Virus record (IMG/VR): IMGVR_UViG_3300024518_003026 | Span: 1 to 25,741 of that record | Length of the DNA stretch: 25,741 bases | Direction: 5' to 3' (one strand) | DNA from: a virus | Shown here: positions 1,422 through 25,296 of the stretch, piece by piece | How the letters are laid out: the number at the start of each line of letters is the position of its first letter | Numbering within the stretch: the stretch's first letter is position 1 | Translations under genes and position numbers: made by a program | The notes under the pieces: generated by a model | Databases searched by the model: none | The model's input: the letters and a program-made list of their open reading frames with translations, nothing else | Told to the model about the DNA's origin: nothing

Positions 1422-1430
1422 GATATTGTA

Positions 1431-1436
1431 TACACC
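1431..1436 (-). promoter_or_regulatory. Candidate late-promoter element GGTGTA upstream of tail tube
   Basis: On the minus strand AAATGGTGTATACAATATC begins just after the stop codon of the preceding gene and lies about 56 bases upstream of the tail tube ATG. Similar cores occur in most larger gaps of the late module (7059-7064, 16341-16346, 18550-18555, variant at 24401-24406). The promoter role is inferred. Confidence 0.35.
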
Positions 1437-1439
1437 ATT

Positions 1440-7044: not shown

Positions 7045-7059
7045 ATTCTACTGTAGAAT
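7045..7059. promoter_or_regulatory. Inverted repeat in leader of the Ig-like gene
   Basis: ATTCTAC and GTAGAAT flank a single central T, a perfect 7-bp inverted repeat, directly next to a GGTGTA element (minus strand, 7059-7064) and 20 bases upstream of the start codon. It may be an operator or a small hairpin. Function unknown. Confidence 0.3.
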
Positions 7060-7064
7060 ACACC
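7059..7064 (-). promoter_or_regulatory. Candidate late-promoter element GGTGTA
   Basis: On the minus strand the gap after the 63-aa gene reads AATTGGTGTATTCTACAGT. It shares TTGGTGTA with the elements upstream of the portal and at the protease gene. Promoter role inferred from recurrence in gaps. Confidence 0.35.
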
Positions 7065-7074
7065 AATTATTGAC

Positions 7075-13176: not shown

Positions 13177-13198
13177 AATAGAGACTCCCATTATTTAA

Positions 13199-13244
13199 CA
13201 AAAAAAGCCGCCCCCAGCAACGCCAAGGTCACTAAAGGCGACTT
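13199..13244 (-). terminator. Terminator after major capsid gene
   Basis: On the minus strand AAGTCGCC (13237-13244) pairs with GGCGGCTT (13205-13212, one G-T wobble) across a 24-base loop, then a run of seven T (13200-13206). The gap from the capsid stop is about 25 bases. Probably partial, since no clear promoter is seen between it and the fibre gene. Confidence 0.75.
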
Positions 13245-13261
13245 GTTATAAACTCAAGTCG
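13239..13261 (-). promoter_or_regulatory. Alternative hairpin overlapping the capsid terminator
   Basis: CGACTTG (13255-13261 read on the minus strand) pairs perfectly with CAAGTCG (13239-13245) around a 9-base loop. Its 3' arm reuses most of the 5' arm of the terminator stem (13237-13244), so the two hairpins cannot form together. It could act as an anti-terminator or a 3'-end stabiliser; this is inference. Confidence 0.45.
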
Positions 13262-13269
13262 AGATTCTC

Positions 13270-14274
13270 TTAGAATGCACCAAGAAGAGCTCGTCTGTTG
13301 TCGAGAACAGCGAAGCCGTGCTCTGCCCAACCGTACATGCCAGCGCGTCTCTGACGATGAAGGGTATCATCTTCGAAGATCTGCACTTCTTGTCGTACAG
13401 GCATAACAAAACTATCGTTGCTTGATAAGTCAAGACCTACTACGATCTCTTTCTTAGAGCCCGGAAGGGTTCCGGCAAGATCACTAGTGTAGTAGTTTTG
13501 ATACTCTTGACCTTCGCCAAGCTCATCAATGTCATGAAGATTTACTTGGAAGATTCTAGTCAAAAGACCACCTTCTTTAGTAATCAGGTCACGACGTGTG
13601 ATATCATCAACTTCATCTACGCCCCAATTTCGAATGTCTTCAAGACCTTCTGGACTGAGGAAGAGGTCTGTCATTTGACCACGATTAATAGACGAGCTAT
13701 TACCGCCACCATTACGTCTCATGATAGTTTTCATGAGAGAGACAAGTCTCTTACTGAAGTATCCTGCCGTTGCGTCGGCATCGTATACCAAGATGTTACG
13801 ATCAACACCAGCACTGATAATTGTGTGCCAGCCGTCGTCGTTCATCTTCTTAACAAATTGACCTTGAAGAACGTCCATTGCACGTCCAACAACATCCCAA
13901 CGGGCGTCACGGGCATATTTCAACAAAAAGTCGATAGATGCACCAACGTCATAAGTTGGAACCATTACATAGTCACCCTCAACGTGTCGTTCAGGAATTC
14001 TACCATGGTTGGGGATAGTATAGGCTACGAAATCGCTTTCTGTGCCGGGAGCAAGAAGATCCAAAGGAAATTCAGCACTTGCACCGGGCCCTAGACGTAC
14101 AGCTTCGTAGATACCATCGAGAATATCGCCACTCATAACTCCTTTTCGAAGAGGAAGCTCAAGAGCTTTGGCAAGTTCTGCCGTTGCTCCTAAAGATTCT
14201 TCTTTGACCAATGAACCGGCTTGGCGTAAGACCTGATCCATTTCAGGAGTGGGATCGAATAACTTTCTAGTCAT
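13270..14274 (-). CDS. Major capsid protein
   Basis: A 334-aa protein with AAGGAGAA upstream of its ATG. Order (protease-scaffold, decoration protein, this gene, terminator) and length fit an HK97-fold major capsid protein. Visible features are a helical N-terminus (LFDPTPEMDQVLRQAGSL), a Gly/Pro-rich loop (RLGPGASAEFPLDLL), a long helix around LLKYARDARWDVVGRAMDVL, and a C-terminal beta/helix end with VRQEVQIFEDDTLHRQRRAGMYGW near 299-322, typical of the capsid P-domain end. It assembles the head shell, probably with the protein at 14289-14732. Codon and start signals are consistent with high expression. Assigned by pattern and order. Confidence 0.8.
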   Translation of the reverse strand: MTRKLFDPTPEMDQVLRQAGSLVKEESLGATAELAKALELPLRKGVMSGDILDGIYEAVRLGPGASAEFPLDLLAPGTESDFVAYTIPNHGRIPERHVEGDYVMVPTYDVGASIDFLLKYARDARWDVVGRAMDVLQGQFVKKMNDDGWHTIISAGVDRNILVYDADATAGYFSKRLVSLMKTIMRRNGGGNSSSINRGQMTDLFLSPEGLEDIRNWGVDEVDDITRRDLITKEGGLLTRIFQVNLHDIDELGEGQEYQNYYTSDLAGTLPGSKKEIVVGLDLSSNDSFVMPVRQEVQIFEDDTLHRQRRAGMYGWAEHGFAVLDNRRALLGAF

Positions 14275-14288
14275 TACTTTCTTCTCCT

Positions 14289-14732
14289 TTAAACGATGTT
14301 AATTTCTACTTTAGCATAATCGTCCGCGTCTTTTTTAGAAAGAAAGCGTCCAATCTGTTGGCTTCCAGCAGATGAAGTAATTGCGCCCGAACTATCAAAG
14401 TAGGCTTTTGCTCCAGCTGCTGGCGTACCAGCTACATTATCAGTTACAACTGTGCCTCGACGTAACAAAAGAACTTTACTTCCCTTTTGTACTTCGTCTT
14501 TAGCAAAGTTAATATGTTGACGTGTTAAGTCTAAACTTACAACGTCATTTAAGAGCAATCCAGCAGCCAGATCTCCCGTACCAGTGGCTACAATAACCAA
14601 GGCTGAGGAATCGTCCATACTTGCTCCAGAACCTTCGGTACTGTGGGTTACAATTTGCCCCCGAGTGCCGATTTCGTTCATGAAGAAACTAAGGTCTGTG
14701 AGATGCTCGACTCTATCAGGTTTAAGTGCCAT
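14289..14732 (-). CDS. Head decoration/stabilising protein
   Basis: A 147-aa protein immediately upstream of the major capsid gene, the usual place of a gpD-like decoration gene. Its C-terminal half shows a beta-barrel-like pattern: KGSKVLLLRRGTVV, PAAGAKAYFDSSGAITS, QQIGRFLSKKDADDYAKVEINIV, which resembles DUF2190/decoration proteins that bind the outside of the capsid after expansion. The first 45 residues look like a separate N-terminal arm. It has a GGAGAT ribosome binding site. No enzyme motifs. Confidence 0.65.
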   Translation of the reverse strand: MALKPDRVEHLTDLSFFMNEIGTRGQIVTHSTEGSGASMDDSSALVIVATGTGDLAAGLLLNDVVSLDLTRQHINFAKDEVQKGSKVLLLRRGTVVTDNVAGTPAAGAKAYFDSSGAITSSAGSQQIGRFLSKKDADDYAKVEINIV

Positions 14733-16339: not shown

Positions 16340-18502
16340 TTACACCAATGGGCCATTTTTTTCTACGAAGTAAGTATAGTAAGAAGCCCGAATGCTTCTA
16401 ATCTCGTCGATAGCTAGGCGTTCTTCTGAATCTTCAGATGCTTGAGATATCCATTGTTCACATTCATTATGAATACTTCTGTCTTTCATTCCAAATTTAA
16501 TTGCATTAGCAATAGTCTCTTCGTTTACATCTGAATTAGGGGACAAAGAACACAATATCTCAAACTTTACTTTCTCTGCTTCTTGCGTCTGCTGAGAGCT
16601 TAGGCTTCTCATGTTCTTCTTCTCAAATCTGTCTAAAAGAACCGGGTTTGTTATCTTTGATATTTTAGCCTGCGCTTTTTTAGCCCACAACTCTGTTTTA
16701 GCCTTTATGGCTGGTTTAAACTTTCTTCTTTCTCTTGGGGTATCGTCAGTAGAGTTCTTAGGACGTCCGGGCTCTCCGGGAGATTGATTATCCTCTATTT
16801 TTGGTTCGCTCTGGGGTTTAGACCTCATCTCTAAAGCGTTCTTCTCATCAGGATTTTTCGGGTCTAACTCTAGCCCTACCTGAGAAGGGGAAGCTATTCC
16901 GGTTTGTAAGGCAATCTTCTCAAGGGAGAAGTCCTTGTCAACAGCATGATATGGACTAACCTTTTCTTGCATCTTTCCTCTTCCTCTCTTCTTGGTTTCG
17001 TTTGAGATTCTTTTCTCTTCGATTCCGGGCTTGGCCTTAATCTGTCTCTGAATGAATTCGTCACTAATAATATTTCTATCAGCCAAATTAATCATTAGCT
17101 GCATCATGGAAGCGGGGTCGTCTAGCTGGGTAAGATCAAACTCTACCTGAGCTGACTGCCTAAAGCCCATAGATTTCTGAATGGCTCTGATTTGATAATT
17201 CCAAAATTCAGTAAGAATAGATCTAACGTAGTTTAGTCTCTCTGTTAGTGTTTTCAGAGAAATGAAATTATTTGTAGTTCCGCTAGCTCCAAAAGTTCCC
17301 GTTAGCGTAGGGGGTATGCCAAGACAGGAGTATATAGACATAAGAGTAGGTCTATATTTTTCTTCTCCTAAAAATCTCTGGACATCAGTTCCGGTTTCTA
17401 GAAGCTCGATATCTGGGCCCCAAACAATATCCATTGTTCCGCCGCCAGTATTGGCCCCCAATATACTTCCGAGTGCATTTGCAGCTGTTGGAGTGGGAGC
17501 AAGCTTATGGTCTAGGCTACCAAGTTTCCATACTCTAATTTTATTTACAGCACCATCTAAAGCTGCCTTATCAGCAAGTTTCAATTTTTCATATAGAATA
17601 AGGTCGTCAAAACAGGCATAGGTCATGGGGTCTGCCCATACTTGCCAGTCGTCTTTTTTGTAGAAATATGTAAAGGTCTTGTCTTCGGGCAACACGATTC
17701 CTTTGCCAGAATTCGTAGTATCTAGGAATTCTTTAGGGATACCTTTTAGCATCTCTCTTTCTCTTGCATCTCCGGAGTTCTTTATTTTATTAAGGTCTCT
17801 CTTCAGGTCTTTTGGAATATCCATTCTATAAAGATAATTACCCGACATAGATGCTAGAGGGCCGCCGACCACATCTAGCAGTAGAGGATCAAGAAAATTA
17901 TACTGCCAAGGAAGCTCACCCTTTTTGAATAGATTTTCTTTAAGGTCAGCCTTCATGTCTATCTCTGCTACAGCCTTTTGCATTTCAAGACGTTTGCTCT
18001 TATTGAGCTTAGCTGTCTTCATTCTTATAACGACATTAGCTTCTCTAAAAAGGAGGTTGCAGAATCTTTCTGAAACAAAAGAACCTTTTACTCTAGAAAA
18101 CCAGTCATTATAGAATCTTTCTATTCTTGGGTTAGGGTGAACTAATCTGATTCCTTGGCAGGCAAAGTCTCCCATTAGGTCAATTGAATTTCTTATAAGG
18201 CCTATCTGCCTATAAGATTTTCGAGCAAAGGAGATAATCTCTTTTGACTTTGTGGGGACTCTTTCATTAGAACGAAAATAGTCGTAATCACTTTTCTGAA
18301 GTCCGGGACGACCACTTTGATATGTTGTTAGATTATCATATGAGGTTCTGCTTGCAGCAGCGAACTCTGTTATAGAGCTAGTATAGTTTTGCAGGGCAGC
18401 ACTTTTTCCCTTTTCGTCTTCCCAAGACGCGTAGGCTTCTCCGTTCCGAAGAGAATGCTCTAAGTCTTTCTGTTTGCTGCGGGGATATTTTTTATCTACC
18501 AT
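16340..18502 (-). CDS. Portal protein
   Basis: A 720-aa protein forming the ring through which DNA enters the head. The ATG at 18500-18502 is preferred over the TTG four codons upstream because GAGG lies 6 bases before it. Portal-like signatures include SRTSYDNLTTYQSGRPGLQK near 50, GLIRNSIDLMGDFACQGIRL near 96-115, and YSCLGIPPTLTGTFGASGTT around 410. The C-terminal third (about 500-600) is a Lys/Glu/Pro-rich linker and the end is helical and charged. It lies between the large terminase and prohead protease genes, which matches the canonical order. The last bases include a GGTGTA element overlapping the stop codon. Confidence 0.85.
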   Translation of the reverse strand: MVDKKYPRSKQKDLEHSLRNGEAYASWEDEKGKSAALQNYTSSITEFAAASRTSYDNLTTYQSGRPGLQKSDYDYFRSNERVPTKSKEIISFARKSYRQIGLIRNSIDLMGDFACQGIRLVHPNPRIERFYNDWFSRVKGSFVSERFCNLLFREANVVIRMKTAKLNKSKRLEMQKAVAEIDMKADLKENLFKKGELPWQYNFLDPLLLDVVGGPLASMSGNYLYRMDIPKDLKRDLNKIKNSGDAREREMLKGIPKEFLDTTNSGKGIVLPEDKTFTYFYKKDDWQVWADPMTYACFDDLILYEKLKLADKAALDGAVNKIRVWKLGSLDHKLAPTPTAANALGSILGANTGGGTMDIVWGPDIELLETGTDVQRFLGEEKYRPTLMSIYSCLGIPPTLTGTFGASGTTNNFISLKTLTERLNYVRSILTEFWNYQIRAIQKSMGFRQSAQVEFDLTQLDDPASMMQLMINLADRNIISDEFIQRQIKAKPGIEEKRISNETKKRGRGKMQEKVSPYHAVDKDFSLEKIALQTGIASPSQVGLELDPKNPDEKNALEMRSKPQSEPKIEDNQSPGEPGRPKNSTDDTPRERRKFKPAIKAKTELWAKKAQAKISKITNPVLLDRFEKKNMRSLSSQQTQEAEKVKFEILCSLSPNSDVNEETIANAIKFGMKDRSIHNECEQWISQASEDSEERLAIDEIRSIRASYYTYFVEKNGPLV
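16341..16346 (-). promoter_or_regulatory. GGTGTA element at portal stop, upstream of protease
   Basis: Minus strand CATTGGTGTAAATAACAAA overlaps the portal stop codon and ends about 20 bases before the protease start, close for a promoter with a full leader. Coding constraint (Leu-Val-stop) may explain it. Weakest member of the set. Confidence 0.2.
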
Positions 18503-18549
18503 CAAAAGCCTCAATGAGTATTAAATTGAAAACAATACCTATTATAACT

Positions 18550-18559: not shown

Positions 18560-20632
18560 CTAATCATTCTTCTTCACTACAAAAAAACTGTCTGTGGAAA
18601 TATTTTGAGCCCATTCTGGACCCTTATACATACTTCCTCCCGCTCCTTCTGGTTGCTGACCAACAACTAAGCCTACATGTTGGTATGTGGGTGCTGGGAG
18701 CTCTCTTTGGATCGTTCGTGCTATCATATTGGCAATAACCAGAGCACTATAGCGGTCTTTTCTCATTCTTCCCTTTTTTCCAGATCCTAATTTTACTTCT
18801 GGAGTATTCCATCTTTCTCTTCCTGCCGTGGTCACGCTCATAACTATGGTAGAAAGCTCGTCTTTTAGTTCCTCTACCTCCATTGCGGCGTCCTCTAATG
18901 TATCATAGAGCTTTAACGCCTCTGAGTTACCAACTTTTTCTTTCATTTCCTTAAATAATATCTTATCTTTTTCGGAAGTGAGACTTAGGGTCAAAGTGTC
19001 AAAACGAGGAAATAACAAAACCTTATCTTCTAAGTCTTTTCTAAGTCCATGATTAGCATTAGAAGTCCACGTTGAGCTGGCAAAGTTTATAAGCTCTAAA
19101 CAATGGTCCCCAGCCAAGTCGTCAGTGTCTTTCTTTTTATTTTCTTCTATAATGGGATAGATAGGTCTTTCTCCGGGCTTAAGTTTGTCTAGATCTCTAA
19201 GGCTCTCGGCTATTGTAAATCCGCCCCCTTGAGAGTCGATACCAAGCCTGACACAGGGAAATAGATGCATAAGATTACGTATTTTGCGAGCACAGAAAGA
19301 ATAGTAGTCATGAGAGTCTGTAAGTCCAACCTTTTTTCTTCCTGCAAAGTCTTTTTTATTTGTAGTCCATGTGTAGACAACTCTTTGGTGTTCCGGGTGC
19401 AGCTCCACCACCACTACTGCAAAATTATCTTGTTCAGAAGCTGGATCAACTCCTATTATATATTTTTTATCCGGCTGGCCTCTGGTCATAGAGTCAAATG
19501 GCTGATCGCACCACTTTGGCCAAGTGGGCTTTTCTATATTGTTATCGTTAGCAACGCACGCATGTATTAGACTTCTCCTAAAAAATCCCTGACTATCCGA
19601 GGTGAAGCACGCACCATATTCCATTTGGTAGATTCCATTATGCATAGTAGCCCTTGATCTAGCAACCTGCTGATCGTCCATAAACCCTTCGGGTATGAGC
19701 TCGTAGGGCATTCTAATTATAGAGAAAGAAGTCCAGTCAAGCTTTTTCATGTAGTCTGGTATATCTTCCTCATCTTCCTCATTCTCAACAGCAACTTTTT
19801 TAAAATCTCCACGGTTCAGGATAGTGGACTTATATTTCTTCCAGTACTCTGCGTATGGTTCAAAGTCGTAACCTGCGGTTCCGGCTATAATCGACTGGTT
19901 TGCCTTTCTGTCCTTGTATGTTTCTTCCGACTTGTCGCTCCACACTCCTTCGTCCTGCATCTTTTTTCGTCTTGCCGCCTCTTTTACGTTTTGTGTCGGG
20001 TCGCTGGACACAGCAGCGAAGCCAGCCACAACAGTTTCATAGATATGAGTGGGGATAGAGTTGAATTCGTCCGCGATAATGGTGTGTGCTCTCAAGCCTC
20101 TAATTTTATTTCCGTCACCAAGAGGAACAGCCATTGCCCAGCTATCATTAACCTTCATAGTGCAGCGGTCAACATCTCTGCGTGGACCACTTGCATCAGA
20201 GCAGATGCTCTGTAGAATTGGAGCGCTTCTCCATATTGTATCCATGTATTCAAAAATAACTTTCGATTGACGGAAGGCAGCACCCACTATAACTATCTTG
20301 GTTCCGGGGACAAGGATACACTTCAGAATAGAATATACAGCTAAGATAAAAGACTTACCAAAACCACGAGAAGCTATATACATTGGAAAGGGCCTATTCC
20401 AAAGCTCTCTCAGTACACAAGTCTGAACGGGAAGAAGGTCTATTCCCATTAGTGTCTTGACTGTCCAGTGGAAGTAGTCTGGATCTCGCATCTTTTGTAT
20501 TACGTGTAGATGAAAGTCGTTTTTCTCGTCGTCTGTAAGGCCTGAGAGCGGAGACTTAGCATCCTTGATATCTTCTTCCGTTATACCAAGCCAAGCGTTC
20601 TCGTATGCGTTGACATCAATTGTAAAGCTCAT
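18560..20632 (-). CDS. Terminase large subunit
   Basis: A 690-aa packaging motor. The ATPase domain has a Walker A variant SRGFGKS (88-94) and Walker B TIIADE (184-189), with a likely coupling motif at IIAGTAGYD (248-256). The nuclease domain has the RNase H-like acidic residues D396 (IIGVDPASE), D466 (LGIDSQGG) and D626 (KDRYSAL). It cuts concatemeric DNA and drives it into the prohead through the portal encoded just downstream. Its start overlaps the ERCC4-type nuclease gene by 17 bases, so the two are co-expressed. The length is normal to slightly long for the family. Confidence 0.95.
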   Translation of the reverse strand: MSFTIDVNAYENAWLGITEEDIKDAKSPLSGLTDDEKNDFHLHVIQKMRDPDYFHWTVKTLMGIDLLPVQTCVLRELWNRPFPMYIASRGFGKSFILAVYSILKCILVPGTKIVIVGAAFRQSKVIFEYMDTIWRSAPILQSICSDASGPRRDVDRCTMKVNDSWAMAVPLGDGNKIRGLRAHTIIADEFNSIPTHIYETVVAGFAAVSSDPTQNVKEAARRKKMQDEGVWSDKSEETYKDRKANQSIIAGTAGYDFEPYAEYWKKYKSTILNRGDFKKVAVENEEDEEDIPDYMKKLDWTSFSIIRMPYELIPEGFMDDQQVARSRATMHNGIYQMEYGACFTSDSQGFFRRSLIHACVANDNNIEKPTWPKWCDQPFDSMTRGQPDKKYIIGVDPASEQDNFAVVVVELHPEHQRVVYTWTTNKKDFAGRKKVGLTDSHDYYSFCARKIRNLMHLFPCVRLGIDSQGGGFTIAESLRDLDKLKPGERPIYPIIEENKKKDTDDLAGDHCLELINFASSTWTSNANHGLRKDLEDKVLLFPRFDTLTLSLTSEKDKILFKEMKEKVGNSEALKLYDTLEDAAMEVEELKDELSTIVMSVTTAGRERWNTPEVKLGSGKKGRMRKDRYSALVIANMIARTIQRELPAPTYQHVGLVVGQQPEGAGGSMYKGPEWAQNISTDSFFVVKKND

Positions 20633-21095
20633 ACACTTTTCTCATTATATAAAATGCTACATCTTGTGCTCTGACCTTATCCCCACAAGCGATAACGTGT
20701 ATACCATATTCCAATCTTGCTGTGGAAATAACCCTGTTCATGTATTTGCCCTTTATCTTTATCTGATTCCATTTGTGCTTAGGTACAGAAGACCCTGCAG
20801 GATATCTCTCTATATCAGCCCAGCTAAATTCAAATATGAGGAAGGCAAATGGGAAGGACGCCATCTTTTTCAGCTCTGCATGAAATCTCTTTTCACTACA
20901 GTTGCCTGCGAACTCAGATACGCTCTCCTTTCTTTCTATACACAAGATATGTTCCAGTCCCTCTATTGCATAGTCACCTATGTCTACTTTAGCAACAGTT
21001 GTTCCAGAACAATATGCATTTTCATCATACCACCATCCATGCCCCTTTTTCTCTCGGGTATCTTTAGTGATATGAAATCTATTGTTTTCCGTCAT
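20616..21095 (-). CDS. ERCC4-type nuclease
   Basis: A 159-aa protein with ERCC4/XPF-like nuclease features: KDTREKKG (about 11-18), VDIGDYAIEG (about 37-46), and IERKESVSEF (about 53-62), close to the family's ERKxxxD motif but with Ser-Glu where Asp is usual. Enzymes of this type cut branched or structured DNA. The gene overlaps the HNH gene by 17 bases upstream and the large terminase gene by 17 bases downstream, so it belongs to the packaging unit. It may resolve branches in replicating DNA before packaging, by analogy to T4 endonuclease VII (a different fold). The domain is confident; the role is inferred. Confidence 0.75.
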   Translation of the reverse strand: MTENNRFHITKDTREKKGHGWWYDENAYCSGTTVAKVDIGDYAIEGLEHILCIERKESVSEFAGNCSEKRFHAELKKMASFPFAFLIFEFSWADIERYPAGSSVPKHKWNQIKIKGKYMNRVISTARLEYGIHVIACGDKVRAQDVAFYIMRKVYELYN

Positions 21096-21426
21096 CTTCT
21101 TTTCGTTTCTTTAATCTTTGGATAGCTTGGTGTTCTAGTAATTTATAAAAGAAGGCTTCGTACACCTCTTCGTTACCCTGTGTAGTGTCGTGGCATTTTT
21201 TACATAGGGTAATACCATTGCTAACATCATATCTCATAGAAGGATGACTTGCCCATTTTTTAATATGGTGAACATGGAGTCTTTTTTTAGACCCACATCC
21301 CGGATACATACATTTGTTGTCGTCTCTTTTTCTAACCGACTTGCGAAAGTTAGCGTAAGCAGGGTCGTCATAATTTCTAGCACTAGGACGTATGCGTTTC
21401 CAATTCCGTTTTCGCTTTCTCGGCAT
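21079..21426 (-). CDS. HNH endonuclease
   Basis: A 115-aa protein with a basic N-terminus (MPRKRKRNWKRIRPSARN) and an HNH nuclease domain: KCMYPGCGSKK (first Cys pair), LHVHHIKKWASHP (the HH of the motif), then NGITLCKKCHD with Asn and the second Cys pair for zinc. Overlap: its 5' end lies within the last 44 bases of gmd, and its 3' end overlaps the ERCC4-type gene by 17 bases. HNH proteins beside terminase genes can take part in packaging (HK97 gp74), while others are free-standing homing enzymes. The tight overlaps favour a resident packaging role. Confidence 0.8.
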   Translation of the reverse strand: MPRKRKRNWKRIRPSARNYDDPAYANFRKSVRKRDDNKCMYPGCGSKKRLHVHHIKKWASHPSMRYDVSNGITLCKKCHDTTQGNEEVYEAFFYKLLEHQAIQRLKKRKEDDGKQ

Positions 21427-22615
21427 TTATATCGCTCTCTAACATTCTATGTACTAGTTGTTCAAATGATACTTCTCTCTTCCATCCCAGTCGTTTTTCC
21501 GCCTTGTTTGGTATACCTCTTAGATATTCAACCTCTGATGGTCTATAAAATCTAGAATCAATTAAGAAGAATTTCTCGTAGTCTTCTTCCTCAATGTTAA
21601 TATATTGAAAAGCATAGACAAGAAAGTCACGAACGCTATATGTTTTGCCCGTTGCAATTACATAGTCATCGGGGTCTCTCTGCTGCAACATGAGCCACAT
21701 CGCATTTACATAATCTTCGGCATGTCCCCAGTCGCGAAACGCTTCTATATTCCCAAGCCGTAGTTTGGGATAAGATTCTCCGTTCCCATAGATATTGTCG
21801 TCATCAAATTTAAAGTTCTCTGGGTTAGTATCTAGGCCTTGGCGCTCCGCCCAATTTTTAAAACCTGCTACCCATTGAGTAATTTTTCTTGTGACAAAGT
21901 TTTCTCCTCTTCTTTCACTCTCATGATTAAAGAGAATTCCACATGAAGCATGGAGACCATAGCCGTCCCTATACATACGGACTAGGTGATGTGATGCCAG
22001 TTTAGCAGCAGCGTATGGGCTTTGAGGCTCAAAAGCCGTGTCTTCATTTTGAAACTTTTCTCCAACGATAGTTCGTTTTGCATCAACTGGAGCAACCTTG
22101 GGGAATTCAGGCAGCATGACGTCTACGTTCTTTCCAAACATCTCGCTCGTCGAGGCCTGATAAAATTTGCTATCGGGTGAAAAACGCCTAATAGCCTCTA
22201 GGAAATTGATTACACCTATTGTGTTTACCTGAGTCGTATAACAGGGCTGATCAAAAGAAGTTTTGACGTGTGATTGTGCAGCAAGATTATAAATCTCATC
22301 AGGTTTATATTTTTCTACTACAGCGTAGACAGAGCCAGAGTCTACTATCTCAAACTCCTGTAATTTAAAATTCGGCTTCTCTAATAGATGCGAAACCCTA
22401 TCAATATTGTTTGTGCTACTACGTCGCCTAAGGCCTATGACCTCATATCCCTTATCCACCAAGAGATCTGCAAGGTAAGATCCGTCCTGACCAGTCACTC
22501 CGGTTATTATCGCTCTCTTAATATTTTTCTTATTGCGAGAATCCTCCAAGTTTTTTAAGCGAGCATCTCTATCTTGGGTAGTATCTTCTCTTCCGTCATA
22601 TTTTATAATAGGCAT
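21383..22615 (-). CDS. gmd: GDP-mannose 4,6-dehydratase
   Basis: A 410-aa short-chain dehydrogenase making GDP-4-keto-6-deoxy-mannose from GDP-mannose, the precursor of GDP-fucose, GDP-rhamnose and related sugars. It has the NADP-binding TGVTGQDG (38-45), catalytic T156 (ASTSEMFG) and Y201/K205 (SPYAAAK), and family signatures GILFNHES, RRGENFVTRKIT and RDWGHAEDYV. Unusual features are a 32-residue charged N-terminal extension, an insertion of about 20 residues after EMFG (about 162-195) and one of about 25 residues before the RDWGHA region (about 254-282). GGAGG in the 3' end of the upstream gene serves as its ribosome binding site, and its ATG follows that gene's stop directly. Likely alters host or phage glycans. 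Confidence 0.93.
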   Translation of the reverse strand: MPIIKYDGREDTTQDRDARLKNLEDSRNKKNIKRAIITGVTGQDGSYLADLLVDKGYEVIGLRRRSSTNNIDRVSHLLEKPNFKLQEFEIVDSGSVYAVVEKYKPDEIYNLAAQSHVKTSFDQPCYTTQVNTIGVINFLEAIRRFSPDSKFYQASTSEMFGKNVDVMLPEFPKVAPVDAKRTIVGEKFQNEDTAFEPQSPYAAAKLASHHLVRMYRDGYGLHASCGILFNHESERRGENFVTRKITQWVAGFKNWAERQGLDTNPENFKFDDDNIYGNGESYPKLRLGNIEAFRDWGHAEDYVNAMWLMLQQRDPDDYVIATGKTYSVRDFLVYAFQYINIEEEDYEKFFLIDSRFYRPSEVEYLRGIPNKAEKRLGWKREVSFEQLVHRMLESDINAEKAKTELETHTS

Positions 22616-23422
22616 TTAATCATTTTCCTCCATATCTATAGTGTCCGCATTAATAAAGGGTTGGTCTACTAAACCATCCTCAAAAGTGTGATATTCCGCT
22701 AACTTCTTCAAGGCTTTGTCGGCGGCAATCCTATTGACTTCCATGTTGTGTTCTTCACGCTTCCTAACCTCCTCATTGTCAAGTTGTCTTAACCAAGATG
22801 AGAAGTTTGTCTTTGCATCTTCTGATCTTCTCTTCCTTTGCTCACGGGTCCCCTTCAAATCTTTTAGGAGCCGCTCCTTCTTTGTCAAGAGTTTTTCATG
22901 TTCATTGATATAGGCTGACTTGCTTGCCATTAATGCCCCCAATTGCGTCTGGAAACTGGCGATTGCATTAGGGTCCTGAATTCCAACAGGTTTATCCATC
23001 TCATCGTCAATGAGTCTATTCAATCTTTCAATATTGGAAACAACTTCCTGACGATCCTCCATTCCTCGGTTAATGAGAATTTCCGTCCTGATGACCTCTA
23101 AGATCTGCATTTCCTCGGTATGAGTCACGTCCTCTGAAAACTGCTTAAAATAATCGATCCACTGATGCTCAAAGAAAATAAGCTCTGGATCACTAAACTG
23201 TTTGCCCAGCTCCTTATAATAGTATCTTTCGCGAAGATGAATGAGCATATACTCATGATCGGTCAAATCCCGCGCTTTAAGATTTTCCTTATCAATAAAT
23301 CTTTGTACTGGAGCCGCCGTCCTATTGAGTTTTTCCGCAATCTCCTCGATGCTTAAATCAAAGCAATTCTGACGAATGTAGTCCATTTCCCCATTTGAGA
23401 GCTTACCACGCTTCTTGGTCAA
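22616..23422 (-). CDS. HTH/coiled-coil protein, probable small terminase subunit
   Basis: A 268-aa protein. The N-terminus has a helix-turn-helix-like region (LSIEEIAEKLNRTAAPVQRFI, about 23-43), suited to DNA recognition. Long charged helices follow (about 140-240, with KKERLLKDLKGTREQRKRRS), and the tail is acidic (TIDMEEND). DNA-binding N-terminus, helical oligomerisation core and position before the other packaging genes fit a small terminase subunit that selects phage DNA. It overlaps the sigma factor gene by 20 bases. A transcription factor is the main alternative. There is no strong family signature. Confidence 0.5.
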   Translation of the reverse strand: MTKKRGKLSNGEMDYIRQNCFDLSIEEIAEKLNRTAAPVQRFIDKENLKARDLTDHEYMLIHLRERYYYKELGKQFSDPELIFFEHQWIDYFKQFSEDVTHTEEMQILEVIRTEILINRGMEDRQEVVSNIERLNRLIDDEMDKPVGIQDPNAIASFQTQLGALMASKSAYINEHEKLLTKKERLLKDLKGTREQRKRRSEDAKTNFSSWLRQLDNEEVRKREEHNMEVNRIAADKALKKLAEYHTFEDGLVDQPFINADTIDMEEND

Positions 23423-23999
23423 TGTTATTCTCCTTTAGCACAATATTTATTTCCTCAAGCAGCTTATCCTTGCGATTTTTACCAAGCTTCAGATTGTTAA
23501 GAAGTCTTATCCAATCCTCGCGAAACCTTACGTGTAGCTGTTCGTCTAGTATCTCCATTACTTCCTTGGCAAATAAAGTACTCAAAGAGGCAGTTTCATG
23601 TTCTTTTTGATCAAATTCTACTGATACACTATGCATTAGGTTTTTCTTGGCATTGTTCCTATCAAGCCATCCCTTATATAGGTGACATTCTTCTTGGTCT
23701 ACAAAGGCTGTGCATTTCTTATTAATATAGAACTCGCATGTATCACAGGGCTTCTCTAATCTAGAATAGTTATTTCTTTTAAAGTTATAGAGGCGATTCC
23801 TAACATGTGTCCATAAGAAGTTTTCTAGGGGCCTTTTACCATCATATTTCTCTAGGCCTTCCCATGCGAATAGGCGTGCCTGTTGTTTCATATCCTCTGG
23901 AGAATGATAGCCGAATTTAAACTTATAACATAGGCGATTAGCAATACCGTCAATTACATCAAGAACTTCCTGTTCACTATGGTTGTCCGGTATTTTCAT
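23403..23999 (-). CDS. Phage sigma factor-like protein (sigma-70 region 2) with Cys cluster
   Basis: A 198-aa protein. Residues 33-75 (DMKQQARLFAWEGLEKYDG, then NFLWTHVRNRLYNFKR) match the sigma-70 region 2 pattern that contacts core RNA polymerase and the -10 element, as in T4 gp55-type late sigma factors. Straight after it is a CxxC-x7-C-x8-CH cluster (C85, C88, C96, C105, H106), probably binding a metal. The C-terminal part is helical and charged (LEEINIVLKENNID), and region 4 is not clearly seen. It probably directs host polymerase to late promoters. It overlaps its neighbours by about 20 bases on both sides and lies near the start of the late module, so it may promote its own expression. 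Confidence 0.75.
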   Translation of the reverse strand: MKIPDNHSEQEVLDVIDGIANRLCYKFKFGYHSPEDMKQQARLFAWEGLEKYDGKRPLENFLWTHVRNRLYNFKRNNYSRLEKPCDTCEFYINKKCTAFVDQEECHLYKGWLDRNNAKKNLMHSVSVEFDQKEHETASLSTLFAKEVMEILDEQLHVRFREDWIRLLNNLKLGKNRKDKLLEEINIVLKENNIDQEAW

Positions 24000-24180: not shown

Positions 24181-24355
24181 TTGTCTTGCATTCCCCACCA
24201 CCACAACATTTATTGTCGGGGTTATCGAGTACTGAAGAAATTGCAATCTCGGCGTCTTCTTCTAAATCTTCTTCTAGTTCCTTGTCTATTTCCTCCTGCA
24301 ACTCCTCGGAAGCAGTAACCTTTAGTTTACTATCTACAAATTTTGGATCATTCAT
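24170..24355 (-). CDS. Small acidic protein with C-terminal Cys motif
   Basis: A 61-aa protein, first gene of the minus-strand module. The middle is a very acidic helix (ELQEEIDKELEEDLEEDAE, about 18-36) and the C-terminus carries CCGGGEC (about 50-56), a compact set of three Cys that could bind a metal or form a disulfide. GAGG stands 12 bases before the ATG. The acidic character recalls DNA-mimic or polymerase-binding small proteins, but nothing proves that. It is next to the divergent control region. Function unknown. Confidence 0.6.
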   Translation of the reverse strand: MNDPKFVDSKLKVTASEELQEEIDKELEEDLEEDAEIAISSVLDNPDNKCCGGGECKTSED

Positions 24356-24387: not shown

Positions 24388-24401
24388 ATATAATATTATA
24401 T
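24388..24401. promoter_or_regulatory. Divergent control site: 14-bp palindrome with two -10 boxes
   Basis: ATATAATATTATAT is a perfect palindrome in the 84-bp gap between the minus-strand module and the plus-strand genes. It holds TATAAT on both strands (plus 24389-24394, minus 24395-24400). Neither has a good -35 box at 17 bases. On the minus strand a CGTGTA variant of the GGTGTA element overlaps its edge (24401-24406). Confidence 0.45.
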
Positions 24402-24409
24402 ACACGAAA

Positions 24410-24420
24410 GACCACTTTTA
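24410..24420. repeat. GACCACTTTTA motif, copy 1
   Basis: The first of three copies (others at 24786-24796 and 24829-24839), all in non-coding control DNA. It lies 19 bases upstream of the plus-strand HTH gene start and 9 bases upstream of the minus-strand -10 box. Confidence 0.6.
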
Positions 24421-24439
24421 GGAACATAAAGAATATAAA

Positions 24440-24646
24440 ATGAACATAAAATGGACAGAGAAAGAACGTCAATTTATTATTGACAACGCTGCCACCATGA
24501 AAGATAAGGATTTGGCAGAAAAAATAAGCCAAATGGCAGGAAGAACGGTCACTTTGGATGCTGTGCGTAAAGTACGGCAAAAACTAGGTATTAAAAAGAA
24601 ACGAGGACGTGGAATCTGTGGAATCAGACAAACACCAGAAGAATAA
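24440..24646 (+). CDS. Small HTH-type DNA-binding protein
   Basis: A 68-aa basic protein, first plus-strand gene. It opens MNIKWTEKERQFIIDNAATM with a SANT/HTH-like Trp start, continues KDKDLAEKISQMAGRTVTLD and then AVRKVRQKLG, a pattern of three helices with a likely recognition helix at AVRKVRQKLGI, and ends in a basic tail (KKKRGRGICG). It probably binds DNA and may regulate transcription from the adjacent divergent region. Its ribosome binding site is weak (AGGA about 16 bases upstream). Confidence 0.7.
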   Translation: MNIKWTEKERQFIIDNAATMKDKDLAEKISQMAGRTVTLDAVRKVRQKLGIKKKRGRGICGIRQTPEE

Positions 24647-24779: not shown

Positions 24780-24995
24780 GGTAACGACCACTTTTATTAA
24801 GTAGTTGTCCAAGATTTTTCAGGCAAAGGACCACTTTTATTAAAATGTTATCCTAGTTATGTCTGCACCACCACCGGCAAATCAGTATATATTTACTCTA
24901 CCCTACCCATTTTATAAAAACACCACCTGCGCGGCGCGAGCGACTACGAATAATATATTTATTGTCTTTTTTTATAAATAAAGTTAAGTTTACCC
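24780..24995. other. Non-coding control region
   Basis: About 286 bases separate the small helical gene from 25066. The part up to 24995 holds two imperfect 25-base direct repeats (24786-24810, 24829-24853), a GC-rich patch (about 24926-24952) in otherwise AT-rich DNA, and a TATAAATA at 24973-24980. No convincing gene or tRNA is seen. Confidence 0.6.
24786..24853. repeat. Two 25-bp imperfect direct repeats with GACCACTTTTATTAA core
   Basis: Copies at 24786-24810 and 24829-24853, 43 bases apart, match at 21 of 25 positions, including the first 15 bases. Together with 24410-24420 they form a three-copy motif. A binding site for a phage regulator, perhaps the HTH protein at 24440, is a guess. 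Confidence 0.65.
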
Positions 24996-25024
24996 TTGAC
25001 AAGTGCCGATATATATTATATAAT
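24996..25024 (+). promoter_or_regulatory. Perfect consensus sigma70 promoter, first
   Basis: TTGACA (24996-25001), 17-base spacer, TATAAT (25019-25024). Both boxes match the consensus exactly at ideal spacing, so host sigma70-type polymerase should use it. It drives the gene at 25066. Confidence 0.9.
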
Positions 25025-25267: not shown

Positions 25268-25296
25268 TTGACAAAATGGCAAACATAGTATATAAT
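25268..25296 (+). promoter_or_regulatory. Perfect consensus sigma70 promoter, second
   Basis: TTGACA (25268-25273), 17-base spacer, TATAAT (25291-25296), again exact. The region after the -10 resembles that of the first promoter, including AACGAAAGAG just before the ribosome binding site (25318-25327). Confidence 0.9.

Follow-up and report, generated by a model that had tools for sequence, protein, structure and literature searches.

Late transcription in T4 depends on gp55, a small region 2 sigma factor that works on host RNA polymerase and recognizes promoters without a -35 element. In sigma-70 itself, region 3.0 is the reader of extended -10 elements, and in ECF sigmas sigma-2 is joined to a DNA-reading sigma-4. 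The phiEco32 sigma factor gp36 has no region 4 and uses a single-element promoter, tAATGTAtA, with transcription starting 6-8 bp downstream (PMC8948821). Cysteine clusters are also known from sigma factors, since CorE carries one that senses copper (PMC3107203) and OrbS one that senses Fe(II) (PMC9023288). The window analyzed in this study, the whole of a 25.7-kb IMG/VR virus record, encodes a sigma factor with four invariant cysteines directly after region 2, and the gene stands at the head of an operon of structural genes (Table 1).

Table 1. Features of the window, with strand and the basis or context of each assignment
Feature	Position	Strand	Basis or context
Cys-cluster sigma factor gene, 198 aa	23403..23999	-	ORF, PF04542, phrog_1740, 117 distinct homologues, dN/dS ~0.1
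Sigma region 2, residues 9-77	23769..23975	-	Pfam, AlphaFold2 helices, conservation, hhalign
Four-Cys module C85-x2-C88-x7-C96-x8-C105, putative zinc site	23685..23747	-	invariance in 117/117
Helix 106-122 after the Cys module	23634..23684	-	AlphaFold2, conservation
C-terminal three-helix domain, residues 139-190	23430..23585	-	AlphaFold2
Conserved control block of sigma/late operon CCTAAAAGTGGTCTTTCGTGTATATAATATTATAT, containing CGTGTATA	24388..24422	-	
Palindromic core of control block TATAATATTATA	24388-24405	-	
Exact AAAAGTGGTC copies	24829-24838, 24786-24795, 24410-24419	-	
Candidate late promoter TGGTGTAA	18549..18556	-	between terminase large subunit and portal; junction aligned
Candidate late promoter TGGTGTAA	16340..16347	-	27 nt upstream of 524-aa gene
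Candidate late promoter TGGTGTAT	7058..7065	-	41 nt upstream of 108-aa gene
Candidate late promoter TGGTGTAT	1430..1437	-	62 nt upstream of 395-aa gene
Terminase-portal leader, conserved AATAGGTATTG ... AATACTCATTGAGG pair, possible hairpin	18505-18545	-	before ribosome-binding site; close relatives
Perfect host-type promoters TTGACA-17-TATAAT	24996-25024, 25268-25296	+	before plus-strand genes
68-aa protein	24440-24646	+	
268-aa protein, possible small terminase subunit; coiled coil and, at the N-terminus, an HTH-like segment	22616-23422	-	
Nucleotide-sugar epimerase gene	21383-22615	-	between sigma and terminase genes
ERCC4-type nuclease gene	20616-21095	-	between sigma and terminase genes
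Terminase large subunit	18560..20632	-	syntenic late-operon marker; phrog_38/phrog_9; tblastn match (E 1e-28) to the terminase of Bacillus phage Slash
Presumed portal	about 16340-18502	-	
Cement/head decoration protein	14289-14732	-	
Terminator-like hairpin and T run	about 13192-13270	-	between 334-aa and 1512-aa genes

A sequence-only reading of this DNA had called the protein sigma-like on the strength of region 2, and region 2 itself is now secure. Residues 22-77 match PF04542 (Sigma70_r2) with an E value of 2.7e-5 and 24.3 bits, above the cutoff of 24, and the match was found in 12/12 members of the first homologue alignment. When proven phage sigma factors were compared with the same Pfam family, both phiEco32 gp36 (E 0.002) and T4 gp55 (E 0.087) scored worse, so the match of the window protein is not too weak to mean anything. 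The protein also matches phrog_1740 (RNA polymerase sigma factor; E 1.9e-5). The comparison with sigma-family profiles that the earlier reading had suggested gave P values for region 2 of 2.6e-5 against ECF-like and sigma2-3-4 phage sigmas and of 4.8e-5 against gp55 (hhalign). Among proteins of solved structure, the ECF sigmas SigW and CnrH come closest to it in region 2; identity across this region is modest, and on sequence it does not tell ECF ancestry apart from gp55 ancestry. An AlphaFold2 model calculated from the window protein and 58 relatives (full length, pLDDT 80.5, pTM 0.49) places the region 2 helices at residues 9-26, 34-50 and 58-77, and region 2 contains a near-invariant stretch, RPLENFLWxHxRNRLxNxKR. 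As to a sigma fold, on which the earlier claim also depended, the outcome did not speak against it: the Foldseek matches of the protein were almost all sigma factors (best E 0.0044 among viral models and 0.045 in the PDB), none of them individually significant.

Successive scans of IMG/VR viral contigs returned 14, then 467, then 475 relatives, and 117 distinct sequences were aligned. At least 475 contigs of uncultured viruses carry the family, some of them longer than 200 kb, while no relative was found among 50,697 cultured-phage records. No full-length PHROG family was found for this sigma either; the window protein does match PHROG families, but just over region 2. When a host was sought in the genome collection, relatives were found on only two MAG contigs, the phyla of which conflict. 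A further sigma-70 protein, either ~150 aa with a clear sigma-4 or ~250 aa, is encoded by 7/12 long relatives (G002, with L091 and L094; G004, L100; G005, L107; G007, L110; G009, L114; G011, L113; G012, L112), and G002 carries all three sigma types, which points to a sigma cascade in the relatives. The RNA polymerase beta-subunit family had no match in 13 records (controls 14/14 positive), an absence that carries little weight because virus records may be incomplete. When the single-subunit RNA polymerase family (PF00940) was searched, the controls did not match either.

Nearly all genes from position 24355 down to 188 are on the minus strand, in the order of two small ORFs, the sigma ORF, the 268-aa gene, epimerase, nuclease, terminase, presumed portal, cement and further late genes. 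The sigma gene is the first module of this structural (late) operon, a position that speaks for a late role, and the arrangement is conserved: terminase lies downstream on the same strand, 1.5-5.3 kb from the sigma gene, in 134/135 loci with enough downstream sequence. On the plus strand, two perfect host-type promoters were found where 0.02 were expected. Other observations concern individual genes of the window. The position of the 334-aa gene suggests a major capsid protein, and a terminator-like hairpin follows between it and the 1512-aa gene. Both phrog_323 and phrog_14101 match the N-terminus of the 268-aa protein as well as the 68-aa plus-strand protein.

When upstream regions were searched for k-mers enriched on the sense over the antisense strand, with no motif chosen beforehand, a strand-specific motif, (T)GGTGTA(T/A), was found upstream of late genes. 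In the first set of 426 non-redundant upstream regions, which are not independent as they come from related phages and whose gene starts were taken from a simple ORF caller, the top words were GGTGTA (37 sense vs 7 antisense), TGGTGTA (28 vs 1) and the 8-mer TTGGTGTA (18 vs 1), and these ranked above ribosome-binding-site words. The distance to the start codon was 38-62 nt for 26 TGGTGTA sites. The same procedure applied independently to a second, diverged set (74 loci) gave GTGTAT (45 vs 14) and, as the top 7-mer, GTGTATA (22 vs 3); here the majority of GTGTA[TA] sites were 40-59 nt ahead of the start codon. In a 125-kb relative GTGTA[TA] was present in 4/49 upstream regions, all of them before late genes. 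At the terminase-portal junction, GTGTA was found in 92/92 non-redundant loci and GTGTA[TA] in 88/92 (6.8% expected on shuffling), the other four having GTGTAG or GTGTAC; in T4, Microcystis phage MaeS and Bacillus phage Slash the motif was absent at the junction or at that position. No -35 element was conserved upstream of the motif.

We infer from co-occurrence that this motif is paired with the Cys sigma. The alternative that survives best accepts the protein as a sigma factor and holds that GTGTA either is recognized by a different phage sigma or acts as an RNA element of the 5' leader. Many relatives do encode one or two extra sigmas. However, two long relatives (159 and 122 kb; G001 and G003) carry GTGTATA at the junction though the Cys sigma is their only PF04542 sigma-70 protein, and this strengthens the assignment of the motif to the Cys sigma. 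With regard to an RNA element, a repeated AATAGGTATTG/CAATAC pair in the terminase-portal leader could form a hairpin, but the leader of the window folds no better than shuffles (z -0.07) and the motif precedes several unrelated late genes. Taken as a whole this alternative is unlikely.

If the Cys sigma does read the motif, phiEco32 gp36 would be its closest working parallel. The two proteins are alike in having ~200 aa, a divergent region 2 and no recognizable region 4, and gp36 acts on host RNA polymerase (PMC8948821), as is proposed here for the Cys sigma. The promoter of gp36 is close to TGGTGTATA of the window family, and what the two systems share is a single-element motif without a -35 element, which in the window family has a GTGTA core and would be recognized by the Cys sigma. 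However, gp36 has no cysteine at all and its gene, one of the middle genes, lies apart from the structural cluster (PMC8948821), and tblastn searches of cultured phages with the Cys-sigma family and with gp36 do not meet.

The start of the sigma operon itself, CCTAAAAGTGGTCTTTCGTGTATATAATATTATA, combines the late motif with a AAAAGTGGTC box, and the box is repeated further upstream. The control block is almost unchanged in 12 sequences, namely the window and 11 relatives whose sigma identity ranges from 97 to 68%; it is also present in the relatives L023 and L037, and G002 has a variant of it. The three exact copies of AAAAGTGGTC (0.02 expected) are conserved in relatives and flank a small plus-strand HTH-like gene, and they are probably operator or activator sites of an early/late switch. 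The block has a palindromic core, and as the genes on its two sides diverge, this core might act in both directions.

Cys85, Cys88, Cys96, Cys105 and His106 come right after the region 2 match, and the sequence-only reading had presented them as one CxxC-x7-C-x8-CH group. The four cysteines, their spacing and their place after region 2 held up, but the histidine did not. Cysteine is found at all four positions in 117/117 distinct homologues, with identity down to ~43%, so the conservation on which the earlier claim hinged is complete. In contrast, position 106 is mostly E (45), S (20) or D (17) in the same homologues and H in only 8/117, and His106 was rejected as a metal ligand. Between the second and third cysteines stands a loop of 7 to 15 residues, and the last spacer is always 8, which gives a conserved signature of CxxC-x(7-15)-C-x8-C followed by W111, R114, N115, K118 and M122. 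The sigma gene is under purifying selection (dN/dS ~0.08-0.11), and its Cys codons switch silently between TGT and TGC among relatives; together with the invariance of the four cysteines, this indicates that the cluster is not due to chance. The four cysteines seem to form a single metal site, probably zinc-binding, in which the loop varies. In the AlphaFold2 model the Cys module contains a short turn and a short beta hairpin (~91-95), and the hairpin stands between the knuckle and helix 106-122, and it is in this helix that the five downstream signature residues, invariant or near-invariant, are located. No paper on a zinc-containing phage sigma was found in the open literature.

The CxxC arrangement is a usual redox/metal motif, and the earlier reading had raised the possibility that the cluster responds to redox or metal state, in which case iron, zinc or a disulfide would switch the sigma on or off. 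Sigma factors of this kind exist, as CorE and OrbS also have a built-in cluster of four or more cysteines, and theirs responds to metal. However, the cysteines of CorE and OrbS follow region 4 at the C-terminus, whereas those of the window sigma are in the middle of the protein, at residues 85-105 and directly after region 2. The late operon consists of terminase, portal and cement genes with no recognized metal or redox gene among them, and there is no obvious reason why a regulator of late particle genes should await a metal signal. A structural site fits better because the invariance is total, the ligands are unchanged and no metal or redox genes were recognized in the operon. The site is probably structural rather than sensory, and a sensor role, for which these data give no support, is improbable.

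It is similarly improbable that the protein descends from T4 gp55 as a true orthologue, having gained a zinc module while continuing to work with a sliding clamp and a gp33-like co-activator. The weak profile similarity of region 2 to gp55, in which KFKF-GYH is aligned to RFNFSGYT, speaks for this descent, as do matches to phrog_234 (late sigma transcription factor) in 2/59 family members, but the similarity to ECF-like and sigma2-3-4 phage sigmas is equal or better. The C-terminus is unlike that of gp55, and the Cys cluster, which the sequence-only reading had considered foreign to gp55, is indeed absent from gp55 and its relatives (eight gp55s). The T4-type clamp was found in 0/7 relatives (T4 control positive at E 2.9e-35) and no bacterial-type clamp was found, weak absences because the records may be fragments. 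Finally, T4-like TATAAATA promoters were rejected as candidates, as they showed no asymmetry between strands in either relative set (2 sense, 3 antisense).

The sequence-only reading made no mention of the C-terminal domain. In the AlphaFold2 model a disordered linker (124-139) leads to three helices, and the domain modeled alone is confident (pLDDT 90.8, pTM 0.73). A region 4 was looked for here and rejected, as nothing convincing was obtained: hhalign of the C-terminus against sigma-4-bearing phage sigmas gave no match, the top Foldseek match of the domain (3hug, the -35-binding domain of M. tuberculosis SigL) was not significant (E 2.9, TM 0.51), and a PDB profile search gave helix matches to unrelated proteins. 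In the ECF sigmas sigma-2 is joined to sigma-4, and in the window sigma region 2 is followed by the Cys module and the three-helix domain. It is plausible, as the earlier reading had also proposed, that the Cys module replaces a missing promoter-recognition part, because it sits where region 3.0 would be, a region 4 could not be identified with confidence and the motif has no -35 element. That the protein is instead a non-initiating anti-sigma or polymerase-binding decoy, with a Cys module that blocks DNA contact, is very improbable, because even though the lack of a confident region 4 would fit and the host-type promoters on the early side of the window mean that the phage could gain by blocking host sigma, conservation in the protein is highest in the near-invariant stretch of region 2 (corresponding to regions 2.3-2.4), which a decoy would not need, and the proven sigmas gp36 and gp55 are also without region 4.

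The model favored here, and as a whole a likely one, is that of a phage late sigma that works on host RNA polymerase, reads (T)GGTGTA(T/A), contains a structural zinc module and makes a core contact through its C-terminus. Host sigma-70 would read the early genes, and the Cys sigma would be made next, perhaps from a promoter that it reads itself, after which it would bind the host core polymerase and bring it to the GTGTA promoters of the structural genes. Region 2 (residues 9-77) would bind core and would melt and read the motif ~40-60 nt before late start codons with no need of a -35 element. The four cysteines would hold one zinc ion, forming a small structural module in the usual place of region 3.0, and this module would set the basic helix 106-122 beside the upstream edge of the -10-like element. 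The zinc module probably helps to read the GGTG part of the motif; the extension (GG)TG directly precedes TA(T/A). The C-terminal three-helix domain would be a second contact with core polymerase, replacing the DNA-binding region 4. A more specific proposal, that the late promoter is an extended -10-like one whose GGTG is read directly by the zinc module standing in for region 3.0, in a zinc-finger type of recognition, is put forward tentatively, as possible rather than likely.

The data presented in this study define a sigma family that was not found in the searched cultured phages or among full-length PHROG families, and a candidate late-promoter code that matches it. With one marker gene and a short motif, late operons could be called in these uncultured virus genomes. 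Should promoter DNA or polymerase be contacted by the zinc module, this would be a new way to build a minimal sigma factor, and if GGTG is read by the zinc module, it would mean zinc-finger-type promoter recognition by a bacterial-type sigma in a large group of uncultured phages.
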